Shown: positions 1-47,656 of the stretch, piece by piece | How the letters are laid out: every line of letters begins with the position of its first letter | How positions within the stretch are numbered: position 1 is the first letter of the stretch | Source: Nannochloropsis oceanica | Lineage: Eukaryota; Sar; Eustigmatophyceae; Eustigmatales; Monodopsidaceae | Assembly (NCBI GenBank): GCA_004519485.1 | Contig: CP038114.1 | Location: 248,001 to 312,000 of the forward strand | Direction: 5' to 3' | DNA length: 64,000 nt | Notes under the pieces: generated by a model | Seen by the model: only the letters and a program-made list of their open reading frames with translations | What the model was told of the DNA's origin: nothing | Databases searched by the model: none | Translations under genes and position numbers: made by a program

Positions 1-561
1 CACGAGGAAAAAGTGGGCGAGGATATGGCGACGTCCTGGACGAGGGGCATCCTCCGCGCAATGGTGGCCCATGCCAGTTTGCCCGGGTTGTGTATGTCCT
101 TACAATGCATATGTATGTGTGGTAATTGTGCCGGGGAAAGCCTTCGGGATTGGCATATGAATCGCTGGCAAGACAAGGATTTGTCGTCGCAATACTTTAC
201 AATCCAAACCTCCCCTCCTTCGGCAGCATCATGGCATGCATGCTTTTCCATTTTCTCACTTGCGGGCCAACTCTACGGCTCAGCAATGTAAGGTTGTCGG
301 TATGGCAGACAGCTATAGCTATAAATGATAAGTCTGAGGCCTTGCATCTTAAAATTCCATGGAAAAACTACAAACCACTGAACCTAACCAGTGGTGGAGG
401 GAGTAGAAGACGATGGACGTGATTTATTTTTATTTGTGTGTACTTCGACTTAATCACCTAAGGTTTAAACTTTGATTGTCTTCGACTTCTTCCTGTATCC
501 TCTAAACCTCCTTCCCTCCACTCTTTCCCTGGCTCTCTCCCGTCCTCTTTCCTTTCATACA
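1..561. other. No gene recognised
   Basis: Left edge of the window up to the stop codon of the deacetylase gene. It holds only short unsupported reading frames and mixed-composition DNA. It probably contains the 3' flank of the deacetylase and part of a spacer. Confidence 0.5.
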
Positions 562-1710
562 CTACCTCAACAGGGGCACCATCTTACTTCCCCCACCAAA
601 AAACTCCGCTGCTCCTACATACACGTCAGCGTGTGCTGCAATTACATCCCCATATGGACCCGACGAAGGGTCGCTATCCGACGGGTAACCACCTCCGGCT
701 ACCACCACGCACTTGCTTCGGTAAGCTTCGGCAAACTGAAAAACGCGTAGATTTCGTCTTTGCAACCCAGCGCGTGTCAAAGAGAGTTTCCCGAGCCGGT
801 CACTTATGTGGGGATCGATCCCAGCTTGAAAGAAGACGAGATCCGGCTTTGACTGCTCGAAGGCGAGAGGAAGGTGTTGTTCAAGGAGGGCGAGGTAGCC
901 AGCATCGCCTGTGTTCGCCTCGACTTCTACGTCGTGGTCGGACTGTTCTTTGTCAGAGAAATAGTTCCCTTTACAATGCATAGAAAAGGTATAGACACGA
1001 TCGTCATCTTGAAAGAGGACGGCGTTGCCATTCCCTTGGTGGACATCCAAGTCAACAATCAAAATTTTGCGGACTTGGTTGGGGTAGTCCCTCAGAGCCA
1101 CATTAGCCGCGACTGCAATGTCACTAAAAATACAGAACCCCTCCATCTTGGCTTTGAACGCATGGTGGGTGCCCCCTGCTAAATGCGCACCTACTTGCGG
1201 CGCCAGCCCGCGAGCGTTATCTTGTCGAAGTACTGCATGAGTTGCTGCGACTGATCCACCCACCGAAGACAGGGTTCGGTTTACATGCTGCTCGTTCCAA
1301 TCGAATCCCGACTCGCGTTTTTCTTGTGCTGTGATGTGCCCCGTAAGATACCGTTGAATGTAAGTGGGGTCGTGGGTGGTTTCTAGGTCCGCCAGGCTGG
1401 CCAGGGGCGAAGGGTGGAAGCTGACGCTGGGCAAGGAGTAGAGACGTTGTTGGGCTTGCCGTCTAAAAGCTGCATATTTTTCCATCGGAAATCTGTGCCC
1501 TTCGGGCATATCCACTTGGAAAATATCATTGTAAAAGAATTGGATAGGGCCTCTGACCACCGCGCCCGCGCCTGATGGTGTTGCTGAGGCGGCGAAGCGT
1601 TGTCGTGTTGGTGGGAGGGCGCGTTTGTCGTTGAGCAATGTTTTAAACCCACGGACCCCACGCCCAACCAAGGACAAGACGGTGACCATCATCAAAGTCC
1701 AGGTGCGCAT
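562..1710 (-). CDS. Class IV-like histone/protein deacetylase, likely plastid-targeted
   Basis: Single-exon protein of 382 residues of the zinc-dependent HDAC/acetoin-utilisation family, closest in motif style to class IV (HDAC11, plant HDA2). It should remove acetyl groups from lysines or related acetylated amines. Visible motifs: GGTHHAF with the paired active-site His at 182-183, VDLDVHQGNG giving zinc ligands Asp222 and His224, QAGID giving the third ligand Asp299, DRLGKLSLT, and GGGY with the catalytic Tyr342. All key residues are present. Residues 1-21 form a hydrophobic signal peptide (start MRTWTLMMVTVLSL) ending VRG, with Phe22 next, the arrangement used for import into secondary red plastids. 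That suggests a plastid or periplastid enzyme rather than a chromatin enzyme; the location is inferred. It is divergent with the CHAT gene to its right. Alternative starts at Met7 or Met8 would keep the signal peptide. Confidence 0.88.
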   Translation of the reverse strand: MRTWTLMMVTVLSLVGRGVRGFKTLLNDKRALPPTRQRFAASATPSGAGAVVRGPIQFFYNDIFQVDMPEGHRFPMEKYAAFRRQAQQRLYSLPSVSFHPSPLASLADLETTHDPTYIQRYLTGHITAQEKRESGFDWNEQHVNRTLSSVGGSVAATHAVLRQDNARGLAPQVGAHLAGGTHHAFKAKMEGFCIFSDIAVAANVALRDYPNQVRKILIVDLDVHQGNGNAVLFQDDDRVYTFSMHCKGNYFSDKEQSDHDVEVEANTGDAGYLALLEQHLPLAFEQSKPDLVFFQAGIDPHISDRLGKLSLTRAGLQRRNLRVFQFAEAYRSKCVVVAGGGYPSDSDPSSGPYGDVIAAHADVYVGAAEFFGGGSKMVPLLR

Positions 1711-2107
1711 GGGGTCCTCTCCCGAGCTGCCTGTGGTGTGTGGTTATCGTATTTGATAATTATATAATAATAATAATATATATAAATATATATACATATA
1801 TGTTTGACCTCCTCACGTCTGCGAAAGTCTTCTCGCTCACTCGTCCCAAGGAACTTCTTCTGAAGCAGGCCAATGTGTTTGCATTCGTGCCAGGGCACGA
1901 ATTATTGAATGGCTCCACCAGAACGACGCCGACTTCGTTCTTGGCATGAAAGTCTTGGTTGAGCATGCCATGGACTCTAGTCCGTGCCTCGGTCGTGTAC
2001 AGTAGAAGCTGATCGCTTCAACGTTCTCGCCTAGTATTTCCTCTGTACGCTAACCAAAAGTCCCCCCACACGCACATCCCACTTACGCACACCATCACCA
2101 CAAGATC
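1711..2107. promoter_or_regulatory. Divergent intergenic region with AT-rich tract
   Basis: About 400 bases between the start codons of the deacetylase (-) and the CHAT protein (+), so it must hold both promoters. It contains an AT-rich run at about 1755-1803 made of TAA, TAT and ATA units, an obvious low-melting segment. No specific factor site could be named. Confidence 0.45.
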
Positions 2108-4438
2108 ATGGACGATCCGGACACGGAAGCGGCGGAGATGTCGTCTTCTACAGCCTCGACGGCCACTCCCTCTTGCACCAACTGCGAGACATACTTGCAA
2201 GGAGACTTCTCCAACGGGTACGCCCAGCGGGTCAGCCCGTCCAACCTCATCCTCTTCCACGTCTGCAAACTCCGCACGGGCACCAAGAAGGAGAAGCATG
2301 AGGCGTGCATCCAGCTAGGCAAGTATGCCGCCACTTCAGCTGACTTGAGAGGCCAAGTTCTGGCTGCCGGGGGGCTGGCCTCGTTGATTCAAGTCCGGCC
2401 CGACGTGCAATTGGCGTCGGCTAAGGCCATCGCCCATGCCATCTTGGGTGTAGACGATGCGTGGGTTTTGTTGAGATTTTCACGGGGCATTCTGGATGCG
2501 TTGCGCCTGTTGCTAGTAACGAGCAAGGAGGCCCGAGAGGCAAAGCAGCAGGAGGAGCTGTTGTTGCAGCAGGGCGAGCAGGAGCAAAAGCAGGAGCTAG
2601 ATGAGCCAAAGCCAACTTCAGCACCTGAAACGGAGGAAATGCAAAGAGTGGATGAGACCAGTCCTTGTCATTACAGGCATTTGGTTGCACGTGTACTGGC
2701 GCACATGATCGTTATAATCAAGCAGGAATGGAGGCATGCATCCGGAGATGCCCCTCCAACCTCGGAGAGGTTTTTGGCCTGGACGACGAGCAAGACAAAG
2801 AGCTCCTCGACCATAACTGATAGCTTGGGGAGGGTGGTGGAACTTGCAATGATGCTGGCAGAGGATGACTGTGGTCGGACAATCACCTCGGGGGGACGAA
2901 GAGGGCAAGGAAACGGAGGAGCAGGAGGAGGAGGAGGAGGAGCCTGTCCTAAGTCGTCCTCGTCATTTCGAGCGCAACAACAGCAGTTGCAGGGCAGTAG
3001 TGCCTTTCTTGCTTCTTCCCTGCAGATGGATCCTTCCGATCGTGATGCTACTATTCTAACGGCGTTTTCTCTCGCGCAGACTGCACATGTAGAAGCTAGC
3101 CGTGTCCTGCTTGTCAACCGCGGACTCCTCCCCCTCCTCGAGGAATGGCTTACCTCAAACGTCAAGGATATAGAACGCCAAGCCGTTTCTATCGTCGCTT
3201 CACTCTGTGCCCGGCCCCATGACGACGAAAAAAGCTGTGGCACCAACAACAGCAGCAGCAGCAGTAACAGTTCCGGAGTTGGTTCCCTCGACATATACAC
3301 ACGAGGCTTCATCGACGCCAAAATTCTGGCATCCAATATTTTACCTCACCTTCTTCCTCTTGCGTCTAGTAATGAAGTCGAAATTAGAGGGCATGTGGCG
3401 GAGGCCCTGGCTGACCTGTCGAGGCAAGCACAGAACCGATCAGCGCTGGTTAGGACAGGAGGAATCTCTTCCTTGGTCTTGTTGTTGGGGGATGCAGCGG
3501 GCGAACTGAATGCTCAAGCTGAGGTGGCGGAGCATGCCTTGACGGCTCTGAATAACCTTGCGATGGACCACCAGGAAGCAGGGGGGGGGGGTGGAGGAGG
3601 GGGAGGGATGGGGGGAGGGTTGATGATGATTGGAACGGGGGGGATGGGGGCAGGAGGAGGAGGAAGAGGGGGAGGAGGGGGAAGTGAGAGTAGCCCCTGT
3701 TTGCTGATTGCGAAGGAAGGGGGCATCGAGCCGCTGGTGACATTGATGAGGAGTGGTGGGAGGGAGGGAGGGCTTGGGCGGGAGCAGGGGCTGAAGGTGA
3801 GGGCTGCTACGATTAGATTGGTGGCTATTCTGAGCCAGCACCCTGCGTGTCGGGTTGCTTTCTTTCAGACGCCCTATCTGATTGACACCTTGTTCACCGT
3901 AGGGATCAATGCCCTGCGAGAAACCGAACGAAAGACCGACAACAACGACCAGCAGCAGCCACAACACCAGCGTCTCCTCTGTGCCCCTTCGTCCCCCTCC
4001 TTCTCCACCTCAACCGAAACAGACGAACACGCCACTCACCTCGGCTCCCTCTCCTTCCGGGTCGCCACCTTGGAAGCCGTCCACGTTGCCTTTGCCCTTG
4101 CCAACCTGGCTGCCATCGGGGACGGGTGCTACGAGCGTCGTCTTGTCGAACTAGGAGCTGCTCCTGTATTGCTCCAGATGTGCAATTGCCCCATCCCTGA
4201 AGTCGTCGCTCAGGCCGTGAGGGGCCTCGCGCAACTTTGTGGGCCGCTAACTCGGGGCTTTGTGAGGGTGGGAGGATCGGATTGGGGAGGGAGGGGTAGA
4301 GGGAGTGGGGGGGAGAAAGGGCAGGGGCTTCGGACGGTGGAAGACACGCAAGACGAGCAGTTGAGGTTGTTGTGGTCCAATGAGATGCTTCAGGTGATGC
4401 TGAGCTTGATCCTTGCCAACAGTAGTAGTAGTAGTAGT

Positions 4439-4476
<38 letters not shown>

Positions 4477-7400
4477 TAATGGCAGTGATGATGCGGCAAA
4501 GCAGCAGCAGCATGTCGAGGCGGTGCGGGCGATAGCGGCACTGGCGCGGGTAGTGGACTTCTCGTTCTTGATCGTGCGACCTCAGGGAGGGGTGCTGAAG
4601 GAGCTCCTCAAACTTGCAGTGGACCCGTCCACCTCCCCAGTGGAAGGAGGAGGAAGGGGGGGAGGAGGGAGTGAGAGGTTGAGGGGGCAGGAATTGAAGG
4701 TACTTGCGGAGGAGGCTTTGGTCAACTTGGGTTTTGAGGGGGGATCGAGGGCTCTGGAGATATGTGGGAATGATCAGGGTTTGCTGCTGGACTGGTGGGT
4801 GATGGAAAGGGGCTTGGAGGACCAGAAGGCAGCGAACGACGAGTTGCCATTTGCAGTGGAAGCCATGATGGCCCTGGGTGGGGATGAGGGACGAGGGCGG
4901 GAGGGAGGAGGGAAGGGGAGGGAGGGAGGGGGAAGAGCCGGATCGTCGGGGGGAGGATCGGTTGCCATGGTGGCGGGGCAGCCTTATCAGCAGCAACAGC
5001 ACCAGCAGTATGGGTATCTTCAGCAGCAGCAGCAACAGCAGCAGCAGCAAAAGCAGGATGGGGGAGGAGAGGGAGGAAGGAAGGGTACTGCAATGCTTTC
5101 ACCGCCCGCGGGATTGGCGAGTATCGAGAGGAGGAGGGAGGGAGGAAGGGAGGGTGGGGGAGGATTGGGAGGGTTTAGCGGACTCATCAAGGAGGTGGCA
5201 AATATGAGGCTGAGAGACCTTTTGTTAATGTGTCTGACTCCGGCAGGGGGAGGAAGGGGGGGAGGGAGGAATGGTGGCAGTAGTGGTGGTGATGGCGGGC
5301 AATCAGAAAGTGCACTCCATGGGAGTAAGGCTCACCGCGGAGGGGGAGGAACGGAGGGAGGACATGAGGGAAGGGCAGGAGGACCACCGGGTGAATATGG
5401 ACAAGAGTGTAAAACCTCCTCTCTCTCCTGCTCTACCTCTTCTCCCTCTTCTACCTCTTCTACCTACTCCTCCTCCTCCTCGATCCCTGTTGCTCTCCAA
5501 CCGCCTCAATTCCGTGGTGCGTCGACTTTCGGTGGCTTTATCAACAGTGTAGCTAGTGTCACAGGAGGGGGGAGGGAGGCAGGGAGGGAGGCAGGGCTGG
5601 GTTGTAGCAGTGGAGGGAGGAGGGAGACGTTGCTAAGCTGTTTGCTGAACTCACGGAGGCAGCCGCTGGTGGATGATGCCATGGACGAGCAGGAGAGAAG
5701 GTGGGCCCATTATCCCTGGCCTTCGGTATGCTCACCGCTGGCCTTACCCGAGGTGGGGAGTTTGAGCTTTAACTTACAGAGATTCATGGACCGAGGCTTC
5801 CCTAGCCGGTTGACGCAGTTTGAAGTGGTACCTCTGACGATGTTGGGGCTCACAAGGGGGGGTAGGAAGGAAGGGTGGGAGGGGGGGTTGGAGTTTGTGA
5901 AGATGGGGGGGATGGGGGGTAGTGACGGAGGAGGAGGGGGGGGGCATGGAAGGACATTTACGGCAAGTGGACCGGGGAGGGAGGGGGTGAGTGGGAGCGG
6001 GTTACGCTTCGAAAGTGTGAGGCCCCCGACATTTCGCGCGTTGGACATGCCGAGCCGGACGTATTTTTCGTTCCGGAGGGAGGGGAGGGTGTTGAGCAAA
6101 TTGATGAGAAAGCATGGGGAGGAAGCGGAGTTTTGGTCTTTGTCGTTTTACAACTCGAGCTTCCAGGGAGAGTTCGCGGAAAGTTTTTTGGAGAGATTGC
6201 ATGTCCTCCCCAAGGTGAAGAGTTTGGTCTTCCAGGCGTCGGCGAGACTCGAGGGGTGGGGGGGCGGGAAGGAGGGAGGGAGAGGGGGAGAAGGGGGGCA
6301 GGGAGGGGGGGAGACGGCTTTGGCCTACCTTGTGGGGGGCATTCCCACTTGGATTAGGCATGTAACGTTTGAGAGGGTGCTGAATCGAGATTCACTGGTC
6401 ATTTTGTCTCACATCCTTGCAACCAAGAGATATCACGCCGCTACTGCTGCGGCTGCTGCTGCTGCACCGGACAAGAAGAAGAAGCAGCAGCAACAACAAC
6501 AACAGCAGCAGCACCATCAACAACAGCAGGGGTTAGCGATTCATGGATTGGCGATCCGAAATCACAGTCACTTGAGGCCTGAAGATTTTTCGCCGCTGTT
6601 TGCGTTCTTTAGAAGGGATGATGACACGGGGTCTAGACCCTCTTCCTTTCTGCTTTCCTCAGCTGATGAGAAAGATGAGGAGGAGGTAAAGGGAGGGGAA
6701 GGGAGCGGGATACCTCCTATACCGTTTCCGATGCTGGCGAGGCAGCCATCTTTACTCGGGTATGTAGGGTTGAGGTACCTTGATTTGGCCGGAAACAACT
6801 TGGGGGATGCGATGGCGGGGGAGGCGGTGCGCTCACTGTTTTTTTATTCGCCCAGTCTGGTCTCGCTGGGCTTGGCCGGAAATGGCATTAAAAATGCCGC
6901 GAGCTTCTTGGAACGAATGAGTGAATTTATCCGGATCCGGGGTGGGATGGGATGGTTGAAGATCTTGTTGTTGGATGATAATGGGTTGACTCCTAAGGCG
7001 CTGCAGAGGCTGTTCGAGCTCTTGGAAGATGATGTCAGCCTGGAGACCTTGTCCTTGGCCCAGAACGCGATTAATGACTCGAAGCCATTGGTGGAGGGGC
7101 TGAGGAGGTTGCTGAGGAGAAACAGGGTGCTGGTGGATTTGAATTTGAACCACACACGGTTGGGAGTTGAAGGAGGGAGGGAGCTTTTGTTTGGTTTGTT
7201 GGAGAACCAGACTTTGCGCTTCTTAAGGCTGTCGGGGGGAAACGCGGCCCTGAAAAGCGAGGAGAGGGAGTTGATCGAGAGGCAGCTCGCGGGAAATAGG
7301 CGGCGGTTCTATGCGCCCTTGACGAGGCTGCCTCGTGCGGTGCGGATGACCGTCACTGGATCCCCGTCGTCCTTCCCCTCCTCCTCCTCCCCCTCCTCTC

Positions 7401-9698
7401 CCTCCACTTCTATCTCGGACATGGGCTCCTTGGTGCCGGCACAGGTTGCGAGCAGTAGCAACGACAGCAGCACCACCAGTACCACCAGCCCGCACCGGCA
7501 ACAGCACCTGCAACACCAGCCACACGGTCAACAGCAGACAGGAAATTCAGGAGGAGAAGGAGGAGGAAGAGGAGGGTCTAACCACCACCGAAGTACCTCA
7601 GCGCCCGTCCGTGCTGGTCGTCGTCAAGGTAGAGCCAGTGCTAATATAGCCTGTGGGGAGGAAGAGGAGGAAGGAACGGAGGACGAGGAGGAGGAAGAGG
7701 TGGAGACGGACGGTGATGCATACGATGGGGAGGAAGGGAACGTACACCCGGCTTTGTTGGAAATGGGGGGGAGAGCGGGAAACATAGGAGGGAGGTTAGG
7801 AGGAAAGAAGGGCCATGGAGGGAGGGATAAATCTCCGGTGAGTGAATGGACGGTGAATGCGGAGGGAGGGGGCGAGCGGAAGGAGGAGGAAGAGGAGTGG
7901 AAGAGGGAGGGAGAGGATGATGAGGAGGCGTTGCATCGTGATGTTCTCTCGGTCCTTTTTTCCGCGCCTTTGGCGTGGAGGGACTTGGAGGGCAACTTAC
8001 ACCCGATCGAGTTGTTATTTTTTGACCAGGAGCGAGAGCAGCTAATGCAGAGCTTGATGGAGAGTGGGTCGGCTATCATCCCGCGGTTTGATTTCTGCAC
8101 AACGGACACATTGCGGACCGCCGTGACGTTGGGAGCGAGGGCGTTGCATTACTCGGGCCATGGCCATCGGAATCAATTGACCTTCGAGGACGGTGCAGGG
8201 GGGCTGCAGCTGGTGCCGGTGGAGATGTTGAGGAGTTTGTGTGCGGCAGGTTCGCATAAGTTGGACCTGGTGGTGGTGTCTTCGTGCTATTCGAAGCTGG
8301 CAGGCCAGGCCTTTGTGGATGCAGGGGTGCCGCATGTGGTGTGCATTAATCTTGAAGCGACTATCACCGATAGTGCGGCGCTGGCATTCACCAAGGCCTT
8401 TTATCTCTCCCTCTTTGTCGGGAACACTGTTGAGCATTCCTTCGCCATTGGCCAACAAGCCGTCGCCGCCTCTCCCAACGTCCCGTCCCCCGAGCGGGAA
8501 GTAAATAAATTCGAGCTGTTGCCTCCTGAGGGGGAAGGCTGTGATCACAACGTGGCCATCTTCCCCATCCCCCATCCCACGCTCTCCTCGTGGAACAGTG
8601 GGAGATCCATCCCTGTGCTGGATGCGTCCTGGTCGTTGCAGCAGGAGCGGCAGGCGCACCTCCCTAACCCCCCAGAGGATTTCTTGGGGAGGGAAGTGAG
8701 TATGTATCGAGCGGTGAATGCGTGTTTGAATCGACGGTTGGTGACGTTGCTTGGGCTGGGGGGGATAGGGAAGAGTGCGTTGGCGGCTGCCTGTTGTCAT
8801 TACATGGCGCTGAGGCACTTTTTCCCCGACGGATTGGTTTTTGTGCGGTTACAGGGAAAGACGACGTTGGAAGAATTGATTCAATCTATCATTCAGGGTG
8901 TCCTTAAGCACTTGCCGTTGCAATCATCTAGTGGGAACAGCGGAGCCGGAAGGGAGGGAGGGAGGGAGGGGTCCATGATGGGCTACCCTCCCCCAAGCCC
9001 CAGGGCGGAGGAGGACGGATCTTTGGAGGAGGATGAGGAGTGGTTGTTGGCGAGGTTGAGGACAGCGAAGGTGTTGTTGATGCTAGATCACCTACAAGAA
9101 CTTCAAGCAGGGCACGATGGGATTAATGTCAAGATTTTCTTGAGTCAACTTTTCGAGCAGACGCGGGCGGTTAAAGTAATGGTGACGACGACCCGACCGT
9201 TGGACCTGCATACGCTACCCGGGTACGGGAATGGAGTGGTGAGCGAGACGCTAGTGAGCGTGGGGCCGCTGACTTTCAAAAATTCTGTGAGGTTGTTTTC
9301 CCGCCTGTGTCCGCATTTGCACACGGCGAGGGACCGACGGGTAAGTAGTGGAAGGAGGGAGGGAGGGGATGGAGGGAGACAGGAGGCAGAGGAAAGAATG
9401 AGGATGTGATTTTTTGTGTTTGTGATTTGACAGAGAAACCCACCTTTCCTCCCTTTCTCCCTCGTATCCTTTCTATTTACAGCTCCTATTCGAGTCGCTC
9501 GTCTGGCCGGATGGCCAAAAAGACGTCACCATTGCCTCCCGCGATATCACCCCACGCACGTATGCTATCTTGGAGAGGATGGGGGAGGGACACCCAGCAC
9601 GAATTTTGAAGAGAGCCTACGAGATTTCCGAGCAGGAGGTGCTGGCTTTGCTTAGGCAAGGGCAGGAGAGCAAACGGAAGGAGGAGGAGGGCAATTAG
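2108..9698 (+). CDS. Giant ARM-LRR-CHAT protease-NB-ARC (STAND) protein
   Basis: Exon 1 is 2108-9340 and exon 2 is 9483-9698 (GTAAGT...TTTACAG, phase 0), giving 2,482 residues. Order of parts: helical armadillo-like repeats (about 50-900) broken by poly-Ser, poly-Gly and poly-Gln; disordered Gly/Arg-rich stretch; ribonuclease-inhibitor-type leucine-rich repeats (about 1555-1715); acidic linker; CHAT caspase-like protease domain (about 1944-2140) with catalytic His2018 in HYSGHGH and Cys2060 in VVVSSCYS; then an NB-ARC/STAND NTPase with Walker A GLGGIGKS (Lys2222), Walker B VLLMLDHL (Asp2327) and the sensor-like MVTTTR. Exon 2 adds a GLPL-like segment (MGEGHPARIL), which supports the splice. 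The protein then ends without a winged-helix or C-terminal repeat domain. It should be an NTP-switched protease with repeat sensors at the N-terminal side, by analogy with CHAT-STAND proteins of bacteria and NLRs; the trigger and substrate are unknown. The start is the first ATG, close behind the divergent promoter. Confidence 0.85.
9341..9482 (+). other. Intron of the ARM-LRR-CHAT-NB-ARC gene
   Basis: Donor GTAAGT at 9341 after an Arg codon and acceptor TTTACAG ending at 9482. Reading through would end the protein at 9409 inside the NTPase. Splicing restores 71 further residues that carry the GxP motif expected at this point of an NB-ARC domain. Confidence 0.85.
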
Positions 9699-10764
9699 GG
9701 AGGGGAGGAAGGGAGGAGTGCGACATTAGACTGATATGGGAAAGAGAAATGATGAAGGATATGTGGAGAAGTAAGTCGGTAACTATTTTTTTTCCAGGTG
9801 AGAGTGAAGGTAGGTAGATTTTGAATCAAATGGTATCGGGGAGATCGAAGGGACGTGTGAATTCTGTAGATAGACAAAGCTTCGTTTCCCTTCTTGAAAA
9901 GAGTGGAGATAAGAAGAAAAGGAACAGAAAGAATCAAAGAGACCAAATAGCATGAGCTAAAGTTATCCTCATAAAGTATGTCAGTGATTTCCAAACATTC
10001 TTTCTGTTCGTCGTAAATATATGGCACCTGAAAGCGCGCGAGGGACACCGCACGATGGAATATTATGGGAGCATACTACCATCTGAAGGGGTGAGAGGTC
10101 ACAATGCAAGTTTTGCCACCAGCAACCAGAAGAAACCTCCACACTCCCTAACCATTCTCTTACTCCACGACACAAAAACATATTCTATTCGAGCGAAAGG
10201 TTCCCAGGCTCTCAAGCGAATGCGGATGGGCCCAGTAGGATGGCGCGTGGGATTGGGCATTTCGTTGAGTGTGACGCAGGCCGTGTGTTCGGTTCGGGGG
10301 AGCAGCAGTTCCAAGTGTGGGTCATGTTAGTCTTTGATCGGTCCCGTACCCGAAGGCTAGTGACTACCACGGTGGAACAACGTGAATGCTAAAGAGATTG
10401 ATTGTTCATGAAGGTTATGGAGTGATGTTTGCCTTCATTGGCTTTGTTTGTCGGCGTGGTTTGGAACTGCCACATTTCGACTGCGGGAGAAACGAGAGAG
10501 CAGAAGCCAAGCCAGCGGGTGCTGCTGCTTATCTCGCCCTCCCGCCCTTCCACACAATCTCCGCAATGTGATGCATTCATCCGGCCAAGACTCATACCCA
10601 CCCACCCACCACATACACAACATAGCCATCTGCTTCAAGGCAAGGATGGGACGTGGAGCCGTCGAATGTGGCCTGTAAAGGCCTTTACTGGCCTTTGAAG
10701 ACCAGCAGCTAGTCCTGGAATGATGGTCCATGAACAACAACAACAGATTAAGAGGCAGTTGGTG
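9699..10764. other. Spacer without a recognisable gene
   Basis: About 1.07 kb between the CHAT gene and the threonine aldolase gene, both on the plus strand. The first third is AT-richer and looks like 3' flank. Overlapping small frames on both strands have no domain or repeat support. The last few hundred bases should contain the aldolase promoter. Confidence 0.5.
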
Positions 10765-12776
10765 ATGGCATCTAGGGGCCTTCACCTGCTAGCAGTGCTA
10801 GCATTGTTGGTGTGTGAGGTCGTACAAGGATGGGTAAGACCAAGCTTGGTGACGCCCAAACCTTTTAGCGCGCCCCTCCAACGACGACCACTCCTGCAGC
10901 CCCGCCTCCCCATATCCCCCACCTCTTTTTCCTTCCTGGCTTCGACCAGCATGAAGACGGGCTTCGAGACAGCGGCGCCTATAGGATCTGCATCTACCAA
11001 CGGGCCTTCGACCAACAACAACGCATCCCCCACCATCTATTCTGCTGTGACTGTCCGCCAGGGATTTTCCGACTTCCGAAGCGACACCGTCACGCAGCCC
11101 ACGCAGCAAATGCGGAAAGCCATGTCTAAGGCCGAGGTGGGGGATGACGTATATCGCGAAGACCCCACCGTTGACCAGCTGGAGAGAGAGGTCGCGGCAT
11201 TGCTGGGGCACGAGGCCGCCTTGTTTGTGCCCAGCCGCACGATGGGGAATTTGATTAGCATCATGATTTGGTGCTCTTCGAGGGGGTCTTCCTTTATTTG
11301 CGGAGAGAAGAGTCATGTGTTCTTGTGTGAAGAAGGGGGTGCGGCTCAATTTGGGGGCGTGAGTCCTTTCCCAGTGCCGCACAACGAGGTGGATGGGAGC
11401 TTGGGTTTAGATAGCATTCGAAAGGCGATTTTGGAGGAGACAACGGATGCGAGCCTCGCGCAGTTGATTACGTTGGAAAATCCAGTGGATCGATGTGGAG
11501 GACGGGTACTATCGGCTGACTATATTGAGAGTGTCGCGGCGTTAGCTCATGAACATGGGTTGAAGTTGCACCTGGACGGTTCCAGGATTTGGAACGCGGC
11601 GGTGGCTACGGGGGTGGATGTGAAGGAGATGACCAAGCACGCGGATAGTGTCACAGTATGTGTGTCCAAGGGGCTCGGCGCACCTGCGGGTTCTCTTCTT
11701 GTCGGCTCTCGGGCATTCACAGAGAAGGCACGGAAGATCCGCAAGGCCTTGGGTGGAGCCATGCGGCAAGTAGGCGTTCTTGCCGCTGCTGGTCTCGTAG
11801 CACTCAAACGTTCCCTTCCTCGCCTCGCGGAAGACCACGAAAATGCTAAGAGACTTGCTACTGGCCTTTCTAGCCTCCCAGGTCTTAAGATTAATCCCGC
11901 GGCTGTCGAAACAAACATCGTCATGGTTGACCTTGATGACCGCCTCCCCCTTTCCCCCCCCGAGCTGCTCGAAGAACTTGAGAAACGCAACGTCCTTGCC
12001 CTCGCTGTCGGCCCCCGTCGCGTTCGCTTCGTGACACACTACGACGTTTCGGAAAACGACGTCAAGAAAGCTTTGGGGGCGTTCGACAAGATCCTTTCCC
12101 CCTACAAAGAACTCTTCCTCCATCCCCCCCCTGCCGCAGCAGCGGCAGCAGTTGAAGCGGCCGCCACGGCGAAAGCTGCGGCGGCAGCTGCTACTGCTGC
12201 GGCGGAGGCGGCGACAGTACAGCAGCTACAGGAGGTGGCGGGGCCACCGGGAGTGGTAGACACAACAGCGACGGTGGTGGTAAACAACACCGTAGCGGCA
12301 GCCGCAGGAACAGCAACGGGAAAAGCGGCGATGGATGAAGTTGATCTGGTTGTGCACGGCGTGAGCACCAGCGAGAAGGGATTTGTCGTCATTTTGGCCC
12401 GAAAGGACGAGCCTGCCCAGGAATCCATTGACGCGCGAACACAGAAGAAAGCAATTAAGGTAGTGATCACGCCCTCTGACCCGATGTCGGCCGGTCTCGA
12501 CGTGCACCAAGCGGAGACCCCCGAGGCAGTGACGTTGCTCCAGCTTCTCCAAGACATCGATGTGGGGTCTTATTTGAAGCATGATGCCTTGTCGACCCTC
12601 GTGGGGGTAAAGGCCGGGCATCCCGTAACGCTGAATAGGGTGGTGCTGGAGCACTTGTCTGTTGAAGGGGCGGGAGGCGCAAGCAATAGCAACAAGAGGT
12701 TCAAGGCGCGTTTGGAGGTTGACGTAGGGGATATCGAGGGAGCAACGCCTACCGCCGGTGCAGCAGGCACAGGAGT

Positions 12777-12807
<31 letters not shown>

Positions 12808-13403
12808 CAACAACAGCAGACATACAAGGATAACTCCTCTGCTAGTGCTACTGCTGTTGCTCAAGGTGGTCCTGCGGTTAGCGGGGTGGGAGGGATGCCT
12901 CTTCCTGGCTCGGCGGCTCCCACAACAGTGGTAAAAGCGGAAGTCAAGTCGGCGTTTCAGGCTATGGCGCTAGCGTTCAGGTACAACGCCCAACTGGCTG
13001 CAGCTGTCTCTATTTTAGAAGACCCTACGGTGACCGTTGACCTTGGGGAGGTCCGCGGAATTTTCCCTGACTTACTGGAGCTGAAGCCGGGAGGGATGAA
13101 AGCCAGCCCGACGACGGTCGCTTCCGCCCTGGATTTGGATGCGGAATATGAAATAACGCGGTTGGAGAAGCAGCTCCGTGCAGCGTTAGCGGCGGGGGGG
13201 GGGCTGGAACAACAGGCCGTGGTGGCAAAATTGAGGAGGCAATTGGCGTTGTATGCGCCGGATTTCCAGGAGCTCAGTGTTGGAGGCAGGATGGGTGGAA
13301 TGGAGGATTTGCGTTTGCTTGAATCGGCGGCACCCTCATTTTATGCGCAAGCGGCTGAAGGAGGGGTGCAGCCGCATGAGCAGCAACCGCAGCAGCAGCA
13401 ACC

Positions 13404-13458
<55 letters not shown>

Positions 13459-13569
13459 CAACAGCAGCAGCAGCAGCAGCACCAGCAGAGGCGGGGTAGT
13501 AATAATAAGACTTCTATGGCCCCTCCATTTATTCCTCCTCCGCCCGCGGACCTGATTGATTCTCCATGA
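10765..13569 (+). CDS. Threonine aldolase fused to a BFN (DUF151)/UVR-like region
   Basis: One uninterrupted frame, 934 residues from Met at 10765 (an in-frame Met at 10720 would add 15 residues ahead of the signal). A signal peptide (MASRGLHLLAVLALLVCEVV) plus a Pro/Arg/Ser stretch suggests ER or plastid import. Residues about 90-450 are a PLP-dependent L-threonine aldolase (threonine or allo-threonine to glycine and acetaldehyde): FRSDTVTQP, DDVYREDPT, HLDGSRIWNA, and the PLP lysine Lys302 in VSKGLGAPAG. An Ala-rich linker follows, then about 525-645 and 728-765 resemble the two halves of a bifunctional-nuclease BFN/DUF151 domain (VVLEHLSV..., MALAFRYNA), interrupted by a Gln-rich insert. 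A short charged helix (EITRLEKQLRAAL) resembles a UVR motif, which often follows BFN. The tail is poly-Gln. The aldolase call is strong; the BFN/UVR call is moderate. Confidence 0.85.
13381..13490 (+). repeat. CAG/CAA triplet tract coding poly-Gln
   Basis: A run of CAG and CAA codons near the 3' end of the aldolase-BFN gene, giving a long Gln run before a short basic tail. Mixed codons at both ends suggest an older tract with a younger pure CAG core. Confidence 0.9.
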
Positions 13570-15615
13570 TTGAGATCAAGCAGAAAAGGACATAGCACAG
13601 CGAACTAGTCGGTAAAGAGATCGTCCTGGACTCCTGGCAAAGGTGGAAGAGAGTCGGTGTAGAGAAAGTGGTATTAAGGCAGCCGATGGGAGGCATTCAA
13701 AGGCATGTCCTTCGTTACTGCCCTCCATTTCCCCCTCTCTCGTCCTCTTTCTCTCTTTGTTTCTCTCTCCACCACTATGTTGCAAAGACAGAGTATTGAC
13801 TTTCGCCGCAAGTGTGTAAGTGCTCTTTGCTCATTGCTGACTTCCCCCCATTTCCCTCCTCCTGTCCCTACCACCATCTCCTCCCTGTCGTCCTCCTTTC
13901 CTCCCTTTTTTATATCGTGCTGGTGAGAGGCTGACAGATCTGCATGAGTGGAGGAAATCCGCCAAATTCCATGAAAGAATTCAGTGACGATGACTTAGTT
14001 GAAGATAAAGGTGATGGTGATGACGAGCAGAAGATAAGCTAAGGACGAAGAGGGGAGAGAATGTGAAGGTCGGTCTCTCTCTCTATATATACAAATATAT
14101 AATTAGAAACCATCTGGCGAGGTGTATGAGTATTTTTGTGTCTGGTATATGTGTGTGGCGTGAGACGGTTTGAAGAAAAAAGAGAAATACAACGGCTTGA
14201 TAAGGTTTGTGTGTGTTGGAATGGGAATGGGCGAGAGGGGGATGATATGTGCGCCTGGCTGGCTGTATTTGCCTGGGCTCTCAAATGTCTTGTCCTGAAG
14301 ATGGAAAAAATGAAGCATGCAAAAACGAAATTGTTAGCCAAATTTGCGTATGTCCGTGCATTTTTGAGTGAGCGTGTGTGAAAGAGTATGAAATGGTGTG
14401 GGAGGAAAGGAAAGAATAAGAGAGAGAGGAATAGAAAGAGACGGAAAGGACTTTGAAAAGACTTGACATATTCGACAAGAATAGAAATCCGCAGAGTTAC
14501 ATCACCGCCGAAAGGGAAGGCTCGGGGTAGGGATGCGATACGGGAGAGTGGAGAACAAAAAGAGAAACATTACCTGCGGAAAGAGAAGGGGAGGAAGAGG
14601 AAGGTGAGGATAGGTTTTTGTATATTTTTAACGAAGCATTTTTTTTGTTTTCAGATTTTTTAATATCATTATTTAGTTCATTTTTGTTCTCATTGCTTTT
14701 AAGTTTTTGGTGGCATTTTAATTTGTGATGACTGTTTCGATTGCTAATTTATTTTCATGACTACTGATTAGAATCATAATATTGATGACACTTCCAGTAC
14801 CAATACTAATTACAAGAATAGGAGACGGCTGCTCCTGCTGGTACTGCTAGTACTGCTGGTGCTGCTGGTGCTGCTGGTGCTCGCGTCGGCTCAGGTCTGC
14901 AAGGCACTGCAAAGCCACGACGGCATCAGAAGGGGAGGGAGGAAGGTTGGAGGAGGGAAGGCAGGACGGGGGAGCATGCTACTGGAACTGCTGCTATTCC
15001 AGCTCATGGTGTGTGTAGAGGTGCTGTTGTTGCTGTTGCTACTGCTGCTAATAAGGAATATGCGTGGAGTGTGTGCTACAGTTGAGGACGAGGGCGACGA
15101 CGGGGGGGATGAGAGGGAATGTGGAGGAAAAGCACCACTATAAAGAGCGAAAGAAAGTGAAGGAGCTAAAGATGCACATTGCAAGAGGAGTGCTGGGGTC
15201 GGTGATTACAAGAGGAGTGCTGCGGTCGGTGCTGTTGATGCTGCTGTTGGGAAAAGTGGTGGTGAAGATGATCGTGTTGGTGGGAAGGAAGAGGAGCGGA
15301 TCCAGCAGCAACAACAGCAGCGGCAGAAGAAGTAACAGCAGCTGCAGAAACAACTACAGCAGCGGCAGCAGCAGCCACAGCAGGAGAAGAAGGAGGAGGA
15401 GGAGATAAAAGTCGATAAGCATGGTACCTTCATTGGTGGGGGTTGAAAGAGGAGAAATAAGGATAAGAGGAAACAGCTGTCGCCGTGGCTGGATGGCGAA
15501 GGGTCAACTGGCGGGCGGGAGTCAGCAAAGGAGGAGGAGAAGGAAGGAAGGAAGGGGGGGGGGGTGCTTACGGGGGTACATCACTGTGATGCGGAAAAGA
15601 TGGTTCTAATTGTCG
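13570..15615. other. Convergent spacer with low-complexity DNA
   Basis: About 2 kb between the aldolase stop and the Zn2Cys6 stop, so both genes end here. 13570-14820 is plain sequence with purine-rich and AT-rich stretches. 14820-15420 is dense in CTG/GCT and GGA triplets and reads as Leu-, Ser- or Gln-rich peptides in several frames, with no domain in any. A near-perfect 27-base direct repeat occupies 15182-15208 and 15209-15235. I see no supported gene. Confidence 0.5.
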
Positions 15616-17867
15616 TTATGGTGGTGGTGGTGGTGGTAACGGCTGTTGTTGTTGCTGCTGTTGCTGTTGTTGTTGCGGTTGCTGTTGCTGTTGCTGTTGC
15701 GGTTGCGGTCGACAAGGGACAGGAAGCTGTGGAAAGCGCATCACTTGCGCCACGTAATGCGGTGGGCCCCCTCCTCCTGATCCAGCTGCTTCTGCTGCTG
15801 CTGCAACTTCTCCTCCTCCTCCTCCTCCTCTCCCTGCCCCTGGTAAAGCAGAAAGAGAGTTATCACGCGCCCACTTTGCATGAAACATTTCTCGACCACT
15901 CAAATACGAAACACTTAGTTTAGGGCCTGGTCGTTTCCGCTGAGAGTAGTGACATGTGATGCTTCTCTTCTCACAGTTGCTACAAGAGGGCTTGTGCCCA
16001 TCACACCTGATCTTGGTGCTCGTACAGAAGTCACAGCTCTTCCGAAAGGCCTTGCTGTGGTTAGTGCTGCTGGTGCTACTGTCGCTGTCATGGATTCCAG
16101 TCATTCCTCCCTCGTTTAGTGCCCTTCCTGCTGGCGGCAGTTGTAGGCACGAGGCTGCCATCGTTGGAAGAGGAGGAGGAGGAGCAGCAGCAGCAGCAGA
16201 AGTTACCGCAGCAGCAGCAGCAGGAAGAGGAGGGCAAGCAACGTTGAAAGGTCTAGCAGTCATCAAACATTTCTCACTTCCTACATATCCTCCTTCTACT
16301 TCACCCTGACAGCGGTAGTGGTGGTGTTGCAGATGGTACTGCTGCTGCTGGTACTGCTGTTGCTGATCATCAAGGTCGGGTCCACGTGCCCGTTTCCGAC
16401 ACTCGGCGCTCTCAACACCATTGGTTGTGCCCCGGCTGCCGCTGCTACTGCGACAAATTTCCAGACTCTTAATGCTCATATCGATTCCCCCCTGCCTGCC
16501 TAAAGGATTACTGTCTCCTTGATGCTGCTGCTGCTGCCCCGGCTGCTGTTGCTGGATCTGCTGCTGATGCTGCTGCAGATACTGCTGCTGAGGTGGTTGT
16601 TGTTGTTGCTGCTGCTGTTGGTATTGTTGTAGCTGCTGCTGCTGCTGCTGCCACAGCTGGGGTTGAGCAAGAATATGCCGTGGTCTTACAAATATTCCAT
16701 CTCCTCCTCCTCCTCCTCCTCCTCCTCCTCCTCCTCCTCCTCCTCCTCCTCCTCCTCCTCCTCCTCCTCTTCCTCCTCCTCCTCTTCCTTCCCCATACAG
16801 GCAAGGTGCACTGATCCGTATTGGCGGACCATCATCAGCAATAGAAAGCCCTGGCAATGCATACCCATCCCTCCCCCTTTCCTCTCCCCTGCGAGGCAGC
16901 GTTTCCATGAAGTGTCTCAGATAACTGTTTTCTGCCTCGTATTTCTCGAGCATGCTGCTGAGGTCTTTGATCCTAGCTTTCGCCTGTTTCAACATCTCTT
17001 TCAATTCCTGGTTGCTGGCACTGATGTCTATATCTTGTTGCTCTTGTTGCTGCTTTAGATGGTACCGCTGCTGGAGCTGCTGCAAATGGTGATGATCATG
17101 ATTAAATTGCCGGTCCCCATCCTGCCAGTGATGGTTGTGGTGATGGTGATGCAGGTGATGATGTTGCCGATGAGCGACTTGAAGCTGCTGCTGTTGCTGT
17201 CCCCCTCCAGCAACTGCGATCCCCTCCTCTTTCCTCTGTGTCACAGGCAAGCGCGCGTGGCCATCATCGCTACCTAATATTGCCCTAGGCCAGACTATGG
17301 ATTGTCCCCTTCCTACCGCAGCCATTGCTCCTTGAGCCGTCGGTAAACTGGCTTGCAACTGTTGCTGTTTTGTCTCACCATGTGAACTGGGATTGATTAG
17401 AGGTTCACGAGATGCGTGTCCTGTGGTGTTTGGACGGGGTCGGGGAGGTGGAGGTAGGAGAGTGAGGGGTGTATTCGTTTTCTCCGACGGCATCTGCAGG
17501 GAATAAGATGGAAGGGGCAACTACAAGGCCGTAACTTAGTCATCTCTTGATATCTGAGATAATTAAGAAGGCGGCCGCACTTACTTTGGTTGCTCCCCAT
17601 GCCCGGTCCTCTTCTAGTCAGATCTGTCGACGGAGCTCCTCGCTCTCGCTTCAAGCTGTTGCCGGTTATTGATGCCGTGGCCTTCCCTTGCCCGGTGCCC
17701 TGCCCTGCCACATTCCATTCAGATGCCAGTAGTTGGGCCGCCATGCTCAAGTCACTTGTAGTCTCATCCATCCTAGGCTCAGAGTGAGGGGTGCGCCGCA
17801 CTGCTAATGAAGGCGAACTGGTGCTGCAGTTAATGCGGTTGTTGGCCGACTCTGACTTGGTCACCAT
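15616..17867 (-). CDS. Zn2Cys6 (Gal4-type) transcription factor with coiled coil
   Basis: The main exon ends at 15616 and is open up to 17520. It encodes a binuclear zinc cluster with C-x2-C-x6-C-x6-C-x2-C-x6-C spacing (CDFCTSTKIRC ... CSNCEKRSITC) at about residues 495-525 of that frame, followed by a basic stretch (QRKRPGPK). This type binds DNA. A leucine-rich coiled coil (about 165-205) lies on the N-terminal side of the cluster, the reverse of the usual fungal order. The rest is Gln-, Gly- and Pro-rich. An upstream frame from Met at 17867 to a GTAAGT donor at 17584 looks like a first exon, but it ends in phase 1 and the nearby acceptors (17521, 17494) give phase 0. So either the protein starts at Met 17493, or a further small exon or another splice is used. 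Zn2Cys6 regulators are known in Nannochloropsis, including one tied to lipid control; identity with that gene is not shown. Confidence 0.8.
16690..16795 (-). repeat. (CTC/GAG)n tract coding poly-Gly
   Basis: About 100 bases of CTC triplets on the plus strand, read on the minus strand as GGA/GGG glycine codons inside the Zn2Cys6 protein, interrupted near one end by Arg codons. Confidence 0.9.
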
Positions 17868-32134: not shown

Positions 32135-35100
32135 CTAAAACGTTATGTTACGCTTTTCCAAACTCCCTCTCTTGTCCTCTATTAATTCCCTTTCCCCGTC
32201 TTTACCACACTCTGCTCTCTGCTTTCTCCATCCTTCCTCATACTTTCCACATGCTCCTGCAGTCGTCAGCGCCAATTGCTTCCTCACCACCCCTCGTGCC
32301 TTTCGAACGATCAAACCTGCAATCCGTTCCGCCACACGATCTGCCCGTCCTCGTTCCCCCCCTCCCCCTCCTCCTCTGCCTCCCTCTCCTTTAGTTTCTG
32401 CCTCAAAAGGCATACTTTTCACCAAAACCCGCGCGACGTCCTCCACACTTGCCACCGCCAGCTCGTCGGCACCTTGAAACCCGGCATCAAACAAGGCACG
32501 TGCCCTCAACGCATGCATAAGCTCCGGATCTATCCGACACAGCCCTACCAACTCCTCCCCCACCCCATACTCGAGTCGCACGCTCAACCCCTGTATCAAT
32601 CGGGCCAACGCCATCCACTTCAAGTGCTTGCAGAACACCCCCATCATCCCGCAAAACATCCGGGCATCGCTCCTCAACGCCTGCAACGTCCCCCTGTTCA
32701 CTTCCCCCCTTTCCAACCGCACCAGCGGCACCTCCTGCAGCATCTCATGCAACATTAGTCCATATACAAACCGCCTCGCCACCCCCTCCTCCTCCTCCCT
32801 CTCCTTCTCCCTCCCACCTTCCCGACTCATCGGCCAACTCCTCCCCCCCAAAGCCAGTCGTTCCAACGTTCGTTCAGTCACTCCCACTGCTGCTGCTACT
32901 GTAGCTACTTCTGGTGCCCACCTCTGAGAGCGTCTGACGAGATCATTCCAGTCAGGGGTGAAATACGTGCGATTCGGAGGTACGCATAAGTAGAGAAGAT
33001 GCAAGTCACTGGTGAGAATGAGGCCTCCACGCGCTGCTTGTGAGAGCGCCGTGAGCATGAGCGTGGCATCATAGGGAGACATACTGGAAAAGAAGGTAGC
33101 TGCACCCAGTTGCGTACCACGCAGGGCTAACAGAGGTGTGCGTTTGGCCGATAGCTGCTGTTGCTGTCCCTGCTCGACGGGAGTTGCGCCTGAGCCCGGG
33201 CCTGGCTTTGCTGCTGGAGGCCCTGCTAAAGAAACGACACTGACGTCCTTCGCGCTGCCTCTCCCCTTTTTCTCTTCCTTCCAATTTTTTTCTGCCTCTT
33301 CCTCCTCCTCCCGCTCCCGCCCCTCCTCCTGATTCGTCTTCATCTTCATCTTGTCCTCCTCCCTCTCCTCTCCCTTCAGACTCGACCGTCCCTCAATAAA
33401 ACGATGCTCCACCAAGTAGACCAGCGCCTCTCGAAATCGCCCCATCACCCCTCCCTCTTCCCCGGCTTCCTCCCCTCCCTCTCCCATCTGCGTGGCAAAC
33501 AAAGTACACCGTGCAAACACCTCCATCCACCCCTTCCCCTCGCCCGTCTCTTCCTCCTCCTCCCCCACCGCCAATTTTCCCATCACTACCTCGAGCAACG
33601 CTCGTTCCAGCCCTCCTCCCATCCCTGTCTGTAACGCGCTTCGCATCGGCGGTAGTGGTCTCGACGCAAAAGCCCGCGCGAGGCTCAATTCTTTTTCACT
33701 CGTCATGAGGATCGCTTCCCCGCTCCCGTCAATGCCGTACCTCCCCGCCCTTCCACACATCTGGTGGAATTCAAACGCCTTAATTTCCGCGCCATTAAAG
33801 CCCTTCCTGGTCCGCACAATCACTCTCCTTGCCGGTAGGTTCACTCCCGCCGCCAACGTACTCGTTGCGACGATAACACTCAAAATCCCTGTCTTGAAAC
33901 CCTCTTCAATCAACGTCCTCTCTTCCATCGTCACTCCCGCATGATGGAACGCCACTCCCTCCCGCACGAGACTCTCCAAGTCTGCCGACAGTCCCACAGG
34001 GGTCAGATTCAACCGTATCAAGAGCTCTTTCCTTCCCTGCCTCACCTTCTCCCGCAGGAGATCGTCCTTCAAACCCACAGAGATAGCCCTCGCCACCTGA
34101 CTTGCACATCGCTCTGTCCACGCGCGGTTGCTACAAAAAATCAAGACCCCCTGTCCCAGCGACACCGTTTCCAAACACAAATGAATGACCGCCTGGGTGT
34201 CATCAGAATGATAAGGAGGCAAGTCACGAACTCGTGTCCAGGACGATGTAGGGAGGGAGGGAGGGGTGGGTGGGTGGGCGGGAGGGAGGGGCTTGAGTTC
34301 TTCGAGGTGCTTGCCCGTGCAGAGAAGGAGGGAGAGTTGGACGGGGCGGAATTTGGTGATATACAGATGAGCATTCAACCAAGAGGCGATTTGAGTGAGA
34401 TTGGGAAGAGTGGCACTCAAACCCACAATTTGAATGTGTGTCCCTCCTACGGCTCCTGCGAGGGAGGGAGAGAGTGAGGCCGCCATCCGGAGCTTGGCCA
34501 GCATTACCTCGATCAGAAAGCCTCGGCTATCATCCCCAATCATATGCAGTTCATCCACCACCACGACCTTCAACCTGCCCAACTCTCCCCGTTCCAACAG
34601 CCGATTCACCAGGGCGTTTGCCCTCTCGATTGTACACACCGCCACGTGCACGTTCTCCGTCAAGCTGGAATCAACCGCATCGCTATGAAAGCTTTTCACC
34701 CCTAGCTCCAGACCCGCCCAGATCTGTCGAAAATACCGTGCTTTTTCCTCTGCAAGCGCAATGAAGGGCACGACGAACATCGCGGTCCCACTCTCCACCG
34801 CATGGGTCAAGGCCCGCACCATTAACAACTCGGCCACCAGCGTCTTTCCCCCACTCGTTGGGGCACTATACACGAGATTCCTCCCCTCCCTCAGCACTCT
34901 CCCTTGTCCCGCCTCCAAACATTCCACTTGCCAGGGAAAGAGCTTGTGGACCCCCATTTCTTCGTAAGAACGCACGAGCACTTCAGGCAACCCCCATGCC
35001 GGGTAAGACAAATGCGCCTTGGCCTCCTCCTCCTCCTCCTCCTCCTCCTTCTTCTTCTTCTTCTTCTTTTCCTCGTTCCCTCCCTCCTTCGCTCCTTGCA

Positions 35101-44249: not shown

Positions 44250-44860
44250 CACTTTTAAAATAAAGGAGCAATGAATGGACGAGGAAAATATTCATGTGCA
44301 CGATTTCTTCGAATTCTTACTTTTTCAGTCTCAAGGGAAGTATTTCGAGCTTAGAGAATGTGCTGTCGGTTGCCGTCGGGTCGTCGTGCCGACGTTAGCT
44401 TCGCGCCGTGCGTTTCTCCAATAGATATAAGCCTACCAAATACCACTCAGACAAGACTACCCAAGCCACCTAAGCCTTACGGACGCAATTTTTGTATTAA
44501 GGGTTCTGATGGCCTTGATCTGTCGCGGATGGTGCTTGATTTTGCTCATCAGGGCCCGTGAAAAGATGGGTGGCGCAGGCAATGCAAGACTGGTTGAAGC
44601 ATGATGACGATGGGGGGCGGACAAGCCCTTGCCACCAACACTCGATCTCACACCCGTTCGTTCCACAACCTCTCTCAAGGGACAGGCATCCTTAATCTGG
44701 GACTGCATGGTGACAGACCTGCTCGAGAAAGCCGGCGTTGCTGCCCTTTGAATTTATCAAGCTTCCCCTTTGCTTCGTCCCTTGCACCATCAGAGGAAGG
44801 CCAAGTAGCTGCTGCTATTGCATTGGGAGGGAGGCGGCTACGGAGAAGCAAACCGTAAGG
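44250..44860. other. Spacer before the NUMOD3 gene
   Basis: About 610 bases. An open frame continues into the NUMOD3 gene from 44738, so the last 120 bases may be coding if the upstream Met is used. Otherwise it is promoter and leader. Confidence 0.4.
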
Positions 44861-47542: not shown

Positions 47543-47612
<70 letters not shown>

Positions 47613-47656
47613 ACAGCAGCAGTAAAGAGACGCGGAGAGTCGGGGCCAAAGCATGA
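44861..47656 (+). CDS. NUMOD3-repeat protein, putative organelle nucleic-acid binder
   Basis: 931 residues from Met at 44861 (an in-frame Met at 44738 would add 41). Residues about 185-400 hold several NUMOD3-type units: GRPHTAESRAKISAANKGKR, HSEETKARIRLRTKEAM, TEETRAKISATMKQIWQD, DTRKKISDKLKEMYADPEY and RKIAEAIRRKWAE, separated by W-x-D-P-x-Y/R patches. NUMOD3 is a DNA-binding helix module of GIY-YIG and HNH homing endonucleases. Free-standing arrays occur in nuclear genes of plants and algae. No nuclease domain is present. A hydrophobic run (VPLIVGLLLIVVLPTCQSAG) lies near residues 43-62, too deep for a normal signal peptide unless translation starts later or the first exon differs. The second half is acidic, with Ser/Pro and triplet-repeat runs. 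Confidence 0.7.

Follow-up and report, generated by a model that had tools for sequence, protein, structure and literature searches.

Gene structure at the locus

We characterized a gene within a 64,000-nucleotide stretch of the Nannochloropsis oceanica genome (contig CP038114.1 of assembly GCA_004519485.1, positions 248,001 to 312,000, forward strand; hereafter the window, whose first letter is position 1). The gene occupies positions 2108 to 9698 and encodes a protein with armadillo-like (ARM) repeats, leucine-rich repeats (LRRs), a caspase-related CHAT protease domain and a C-terminal STAND nucleoside triphosphatase (NTPase). Without splicing, the plus-strand open reading frame (ORF) at 2108–9409 stays open for 2,433 amino acids. 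Removing the intron at 9341–9482 yields 2,482 amino acids, arranged as follows:

2108–9340, plus strand: exon 1, residues 1–2411; relative P0001 can be aligned from close to the exon start
9341–9482, plus strand: GT-AG intron (gtaagt...ttacag), backed by the relatives' behavior at the junction
9483–9698, plus strand: exon 2, residues 2412–2482 and the stop codon, which carries the STAND domain's GLPL-like end

When exon 2 was the sole query against the 193 proteins collected here, 71 of them matched at E ≤ 0.01 (best match P0137, E = 2.9e-41), and the alignments of 103 of 120 homologues reach at least 24 residues into this exon. The splice junction is read through in P0158, a protein sourced from NCBI (HTARDRRVLLESLVWPED). 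P0001, P0123 and P0137 diverge from the window protein immediately past ...ARDRR, at the end of exon 1, which we read as a retained intron in their sequences. Two proteins from transcript collections, P0019 and P0095, carry all four blocks (ARM, LRR, CHAT and STAND) within one frame. Because relatives support exon 2 and its junction, and because P0019 and P0095 keep the four blocks in frame, we rejected a gene-model artefact. Homology thus confirms the gene as a real, full-length family member. The original prediction, made from the letters of the window alone, had proposed a single 2,482-residue protein; the ORF, the splice sites and the homology of exon 2 all bear it out.

Domain architecture

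We searched three pieces of the protein with Pfam (approximately residues 1–925, 1215–1740 and 1943–2482, with the linkers left out). Scores exceeded the cut-offs, given here in parentheses, for Arm at 35.8 bits (20.6), LRR_6 at 32.4 bits (23.4), CHAT (PF12770) at 24.5 bits (24.0) and NACHT at 27.3 bits (26.7). Just under their cut-offs were NB-ARC at 21.1 bits (23.5) and AAA_16 at 31.3 bits (32.6). NCBIfam gave only weak matches to AfsR and a TPR protein, far below cut-off. The protein is organized as follows:

2225–4882, plus strand: armadillo-like region, residues ~40–925, interrupted by low-complexity linkers; matched by Pfam Arm, and by its block profile in 115 of 121 sequences
5747–6547, plus strand: conserved middle block, residues 1214–1480 (YFSFRREGRV ... 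LSFYNSSFQGEF ...), present in relatives
6758–7342, plus strand: leucine-rich repeats, residues 1551–1745 (LRR_6)
7937–8602, plus strand: CHAT protease domain, residues 1944–2165 (PF12770, and a profile match to structure 8tl0)
8159–8161, plus strand: codon of catalytic His2018, H in 121 of 121 sequences
8285–8287, plus strand: codon of catalytic Cys2060, C in 121 of 121
8678–9340, plus strand: nucleotide-binding part of the STAND NTPase, residues 2191–2411, with a variable insert at 2266–2310
8753–8776, plus strand: Walker A motif GLGGIGKS, from residue 2216 (Lys2222), K in 25 of 121
9086–9088, plus strand: codon of Walker B Asp2327 (VLLMLDH from residue 2322), D in 114 of 121
9588–9602, plus strand: GLPL-like motif GHPAR, residues 2447–2451, with 110 of 121 sequences having G2447 and 109 having P2449, and gaps otherwise

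A Pfam search of the middle block (residues 1214–1480) gave no match over cut-off. The predicted armadillo and leucine-rich repeats are confirmed by Arm and LRR_6, and the predicted CHAT domain with an intact His2018/Cys2060 pair by a score just above cut-off and a universally conserved dyad. The NTPase had been predicted to be an NB-ARC domain with intact Walker A and B motifs. The NTPase and its motifs stand, and the name does not: the strict NB-ARC label was dropped because that profile scores below its cut-off on the protein piece while NACHT scores above (PF00931 reaches 24.6 bits in a genome scan when neighboring matches are included). From these scores, the domain is better called STAND (NACHT/NB-ARC-like).

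Canonical NLRs are laid out as effector, NTPase and then sensor, and in classic NLRs a winged helix locks the ADP state. The window protein shares with NLRs a STAND NTPase carrying Walker A and B motifs and the presence of repeats in the same polypeptide. It departs from them in its order, which is ARM, LRR, CHAT and STAND followed by the protein end, rather than effector, STAND and C-terminal repeats. It also departs from them past the GLPL-like motif, where the protein ends 31 residues after GHPAR and therefore has no room for a winged helix. Sensors at the N-terminus and the NTPase at the C-terminus, the reverse of most NLRs, with neither a winged helix nor C-terminal repeats, are what the original prediction described.

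Distribution and phylogeny of the family

A homologue search that scored the 7,997 top candidates found 140 proteins, and we compared 120 of them together with the window protein (121 sequences; later homologues, P0121–P0193, lie outside this set). Block profiles, seeded from the window protein and iterated on the same 121 sequences, detected ARM in 115, the middle-LRR block in 115, CHAT in 121 and STAND in 120, with a median coverage of 59% for the ARM profile. All four blocks are present in 114 of the 121 sequences, and in all 114 they follow the order ARM, LRR, CHAT and STAND. The remaining seven comprise six with CHAT-STAND only (P0114 and five of oomycete type) and one with ARM-LRR-CHAT (P0116). 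Reversed control sequences gave 0 block-profile matches, ruling out a low-complexity artefact. Across 19 chosen long members, Pfam at E ≤ 0.001 found CHAT in 16, NACHT in 15, LRR_6 in 13, Arm in 10 and SPRY in 4. In 108 of 115 non-oomycete homologues, the tail past the last residue aligned to the CHAT-STAND module of the window protein is 60 residues or shorter, and a few of these end inside the module.

The named homologues come from diatoms, the labyrinthulid Mucochytrium and oomycetes, with Phaeothamnion added by a later search. The diatom label is based on P0019 (its name read as Proboscia from an incomplete label), P0049 (Seminavis), P0079 (Nitzschia), P0084 (labeled Psemu1, which we take to be Pseudo-nitzschia) and P0105 (Cylindrotheca). 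The shared order in 114 sequences rules out a feature unique to N. oceanica, and the prediction, insofar as it was read as describing a peculiarity of one alga, does not hold.

In a slower tree of 35 chosen module sequences, with long outgroup branches, one branch (98/94; found in 100% of 200 bootstrap trees) separates the 19 ARM-LRR-CHAT-STAND rows (of the 114) from their bacterial-type, oomycete and SH2-bearing relatives. Four ungrouped rows also fall within the ARM-LRR clade; three are fragments, and in the fourth, P0114, the profiles detect neither ARM nor LRR. The rows with SH2 do not group together, and the SH2 label of P0193 was assigned by eye. The tree is compatible with one origin of the ARM-LRR-CHAT-STAND architecture. 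Most simply read, the repeats-first design would have arisen a single time from a CHAT-STAND module shared with bacteria, at an early stage of stramenopile evolution. The family appears to be an old one within stramenopiles and not a one-off.

From its domains, their order, and the intact dyad and P-loop, all seen directly, together with the presence of the dyad in every compared member, we lean toward reading the window protein as a permuted NLR-like receptor protease of this old family, a reading that we hold with modest confidence.

Related genes in the N. oceanica genome

We searched the genome (29.26 Mb in 32 contigs) for further copies. ARM-LRR beside CHAT-STAND occurs once among the best candidates scored, and other LRR matches were weak. 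NACHT exceeds its cut-off at three loci, which are the window gene, one on contig C5 and one on contig C1, and each also matches the CHAT part of the window protein.

The C5 gene (P0188; L008, ~2904–5620) is a second CHAT-STAND gene of 904 amino acids with a C-terminal SH2 domain (34.7 bits; cut-off 21), and it is 100% identical to N. oceanica VYU27_002850. Its catalytic residues are replaced by I and R, as they are throughout P0188–P0191 (79–100% identity), and the more distant proteins P0192, P0193 and P0153 retain the CHAT dyad. By alignment, the C5 gene and P0189–P0191 are classed as a conserved pseudo-protease. CHAT-STAND-SH2 proteins such as P0188 and P0153 resemble the window protein in their related module and, unlike it, have no ARM-LRR in front and end in SH2.

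The C1 gene (150500–156500, minus strand; L009) is a third CHAT-STAND gene, split by introns, with an apparently intact dyad (HYTGHG, SACHS). An SH2-like stretch was seen in it by eye, yet a genome-wide SH2 profile scan gave matches on C4 and C5 and none at this locus.

Diatom caspase activity has been discussed mainly around metacaspases. In this genome, the caspase-family profile PF00656 matched three pieces within 1.7 kb of contig C11, which are probably one metacaspase gene.

Proposed mechanism and conservation of the active sites

As a receptor protease, the protein would work in steps. Its ARM-LRR repeats may bind a ligand or partner, or keep the enzyme inactive. Upon release and nucleotide binding, the STAND parts would associate with each other and assemble the protein; the CHAT domains, brought together or unlocked, would then cleave a cellular target, leading to a stress or cell-fate response. 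Repeat sensing, nucleotide control, oligomerization, cleavage and the biological role are all inferred here, and the role as an immune or cell-death switch raised in the original prediction is plausible.

Several observations weigh against this reading. The CHAT score of the window protein exceeds its cut-off by just 0.5 bits, a marginal match, and a whole-genome Pfam CHAT scan matched the C5 paralogue and missed the window gene. The loss of the dyad in that paralogue indicates that CHAT is not always an enzyme in the wider group. The STAND part consists of a nucleotide-binding domain and a first helical domain, with no winged helix. Two 19-residue stretches of the ARM part are hydrophobic (means of 1.83 and 1.74) and could span a membrane, although we take them to be buried repeat helices. 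Finally, at the P-loop lysine position 94 of the 121 aligned sequences have R; 25 have K, one has C and one has a gap.

The CHAT assignment draws on the relatives as well. P0003 scores 39.7 bits, P0038 is unmatched, and 16 of the 19 long relatives match. A profile built from the window protein and six relatives matched the CHAT protein 8tl0 among solved structures (E = 9.8e-9); in the same search, the STAND part was weaker (AfsR, 0.00026; Roq1, 0.0026). The catalytic His and Cys are unchanged in every one of the 121 aligned sequences. Because the dyad is constant whereas the P-loop lysine is changeable, the comparison points to proteolysis as the output that the ARM-LRR-CHAT-STAND architecture retains.

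A quick tree, which carries long-branch warnings, places all 94 P-loop arginines (including those of P0012, P0019, P0049 and P0079) in one 98-row clade together with 3 K and 1 C, and this clade contains the five named diatoms. The arginine in these 94 members of the diatom-containing clade suggests that nucleotide hydrolysis may be dispensable there, with the STAND part perhaps acting mainly as an assembly platform. Extended to the entire family, the same observation leads to an alternative in which all members have lost nucleotide switching and serve as protease scaffolds activated by proximity, consistent with the missing winged helix and the short tails. We regard this as quite improbable, however. 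The lysine is kept by the window protein, its near relatives P0001, P0123, P0125, P0137, P0151 and P0158, labyrinthulid P0095 and oomycete-type rows. Moreover, 114 of the aligned sequences have D at the Walker B position; three have E, one has N and three have a gap.

Comparing the window protein with P0001, we found identities of 92% in CHAT, 89–90% in the STAND flanks, 29% in the STAND insert (2266–2310), 77% in the LRR, 61% in the middle block, 60–94% in the ARM blocks and 21–64% in stretches set as linkers. The gene thus appears conserved, with no visible diversification of its repeats between these two sequences, a pair too small to reveal selection.

The same conservation, seen in CHAT, in STAND and in a large part of the repeats, also fits a housekeeping regulatory protease acting in cell division, development or stress signaling, comparable to HetF or separase; STAND would then be a scaffold, and the protein neither a pathogen receptor nor a death switch. 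The single copy of the architecture in the genome and the missing P-loop lysine in most compared members point the same way. The five named diatoms are represented by one protein each among the 120 homologues, a weak indication as rows were clustered at 90%. CHAT takes its name from HetF, a cell-division component of a cyanobacterium (PMC8406250). Fusions of a protease, STAND and repeats are, however, typical of regulated conflict or death proteins. Fungal and bacterial cases of this kind are on record (PMC10197012, PMC10907252). We consider the housekeeping role a possible but rather doubtful explanation, and continue to favor the permuted receptor protease.

Comparison with known systems

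Of 48 pattern matches in a scan of prokaryote genomes, one was confirmed, in an Anaerolineae metagenome-assembled genome (L023, 5695–8835). This protein and the bacterial-type proteins P0146 and P0147 resemble the window protein in placing CHAT directly before STAND with the same catalytic and P-loop motifs, at 35–37% identity over 435–459 aligned residues. The shared relative order of CHAT and STAND in P0146 and the Anaerolineae protein supports the receptor-protease interpretation. Unlike the window protein, P0146 and P0147 lack N-terminal ARM-LRR; they read GHPLA at the GHPAR site, and their STAND then continues into further sequence and TPRs (Pfam finds CHAT, NACHT and TPR in P0146). The TPR-like tail of the Anaerolineae protein was seen by eye only. 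Judged by eye, the neighbors of its gene include a transposase-like ORF and metabolic genes, and no gasdermin was noticed by eye among the ORFs there, for which no profile search was made.

Oomycete proteins (P0115, P0117, P0118 and P0119, with P0120 grouping with them) share the CHAT-STAND module (E down to 2.5e-39). Unlike in the window protein, their module is near the N-terminus and is followed by 958–1,163 residues with TPR, plus SAM in P0115, P0117, P0118 and P0119. Bacterial and oomycete relatives have the usual order, with repeats last.

Known fungal CHAT NLRs likewise combine protease, NTPase and repeats in one protein, but as described they place the effector first and the repeats last, whereas in the window protein the repeats are first and the NTPase last. 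They have been connected with gasdermins, and CHAT protease genes are found near ~19% of fungal gasdermin genes (PMC10197012); bacterial gasdermin systems also include CHAT proteases (PMC12881547). Coral and human TPR-CHAT proteins have repeats N-terminal of CHAT, as here, but TPR in place of ARM-LRR and, in the described architecture, no STAND (PMC12314368).

These links, and the identity to bacterial-type CHAT-STAND-TPR proteins, raise the alternative of a pathogen-sensing NLR as in fungi and bacteria, in which a ligand binds the repeats and CHAT cuts gasdermin or a similar pore former, causing cell suicide. Several results speak against it. The gasdermin profile PF04598 found no candidate in the genome at E ≤ 10, a weak negative given that the control genomes likewise had no match over cut-off, that introns split matches and that gasdermins diverge. 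The gene's neighbors are a histone deacetylase on one side and a beta-eliminating lyase on the other, and no PADLOC defence model matched the window module. The LRR and ARM identities to P0001 show no visible sensor diversification between the two sequences. We judge pathogen sensing of this kind to be unlikely, and the permuted receptor protease remains our preferred reading.

Among the matches listed in the open-licence literature, no paper describes a stramenopile CHAT-NACHT family or the repeats-first order, in agreement with the prediction that no protein of this order had been described. Members may already have been counted, with their architecture left undescribed, in a report that Thaps3_24162, a NACHT-family protein of Thalassiosira, becomes less abundant when N and P are limiting (PMC5599023), in the 'NLRC3' families of a diatom genome paper (PMC12803021) and in a protist survey counting NACHT/NB-ARC genes in stramenopiles and others (PMC7539657). 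Each separate domain is known, and so are proteins of the protease-NTPase-repeat kind.

Other features of the window

Three further ORFs stood out. The first (15616–17520) carries a fungal-type Zn2Cys6 cluster in an alga (38.8 bits), the second (32135–37102) encodes a POLQ-like helicase of 1,655 amino acids and the third (44738–47656; 972 amino acids) has a NUMOD3 motif (56.3 bits), whose usual context is homing endonucleases. A search of window positions 1–14000 for RNA families found none.

Implications for stramenopile biology

A broader proposal would connect these genes into one system. The permuted NLR shared by stramenopiles, including diatoms, would be the long-missing receptor for caspase-like algal death; ARM-LRR would sense and CHAT would cut, diatom proteins would assemble without the P-loop lysine, and Nannochloropsis would have a network with its two further CHAT-STAND genes, one of them an SH2-bearing pseudo-protease. 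We offer this as speculation, with a low probability of being correct in full.

The family of eustigmatophytes, diatoms, Phaeothamnion and a labyrinthulid puts repeats first, protease second and NTPase last, as opposed to the usual effector, NTPase and sensor. Its constant dyad, and a P-loop lysine mostly replaced in the diatom-containing clade, separate the protease from the nucleotide switch, and which of the two the system needs is testable. Nitrogen-starved, dying diatom cells are reported to show caspase activity (PMC5599023), for which the family gives candidate genes.

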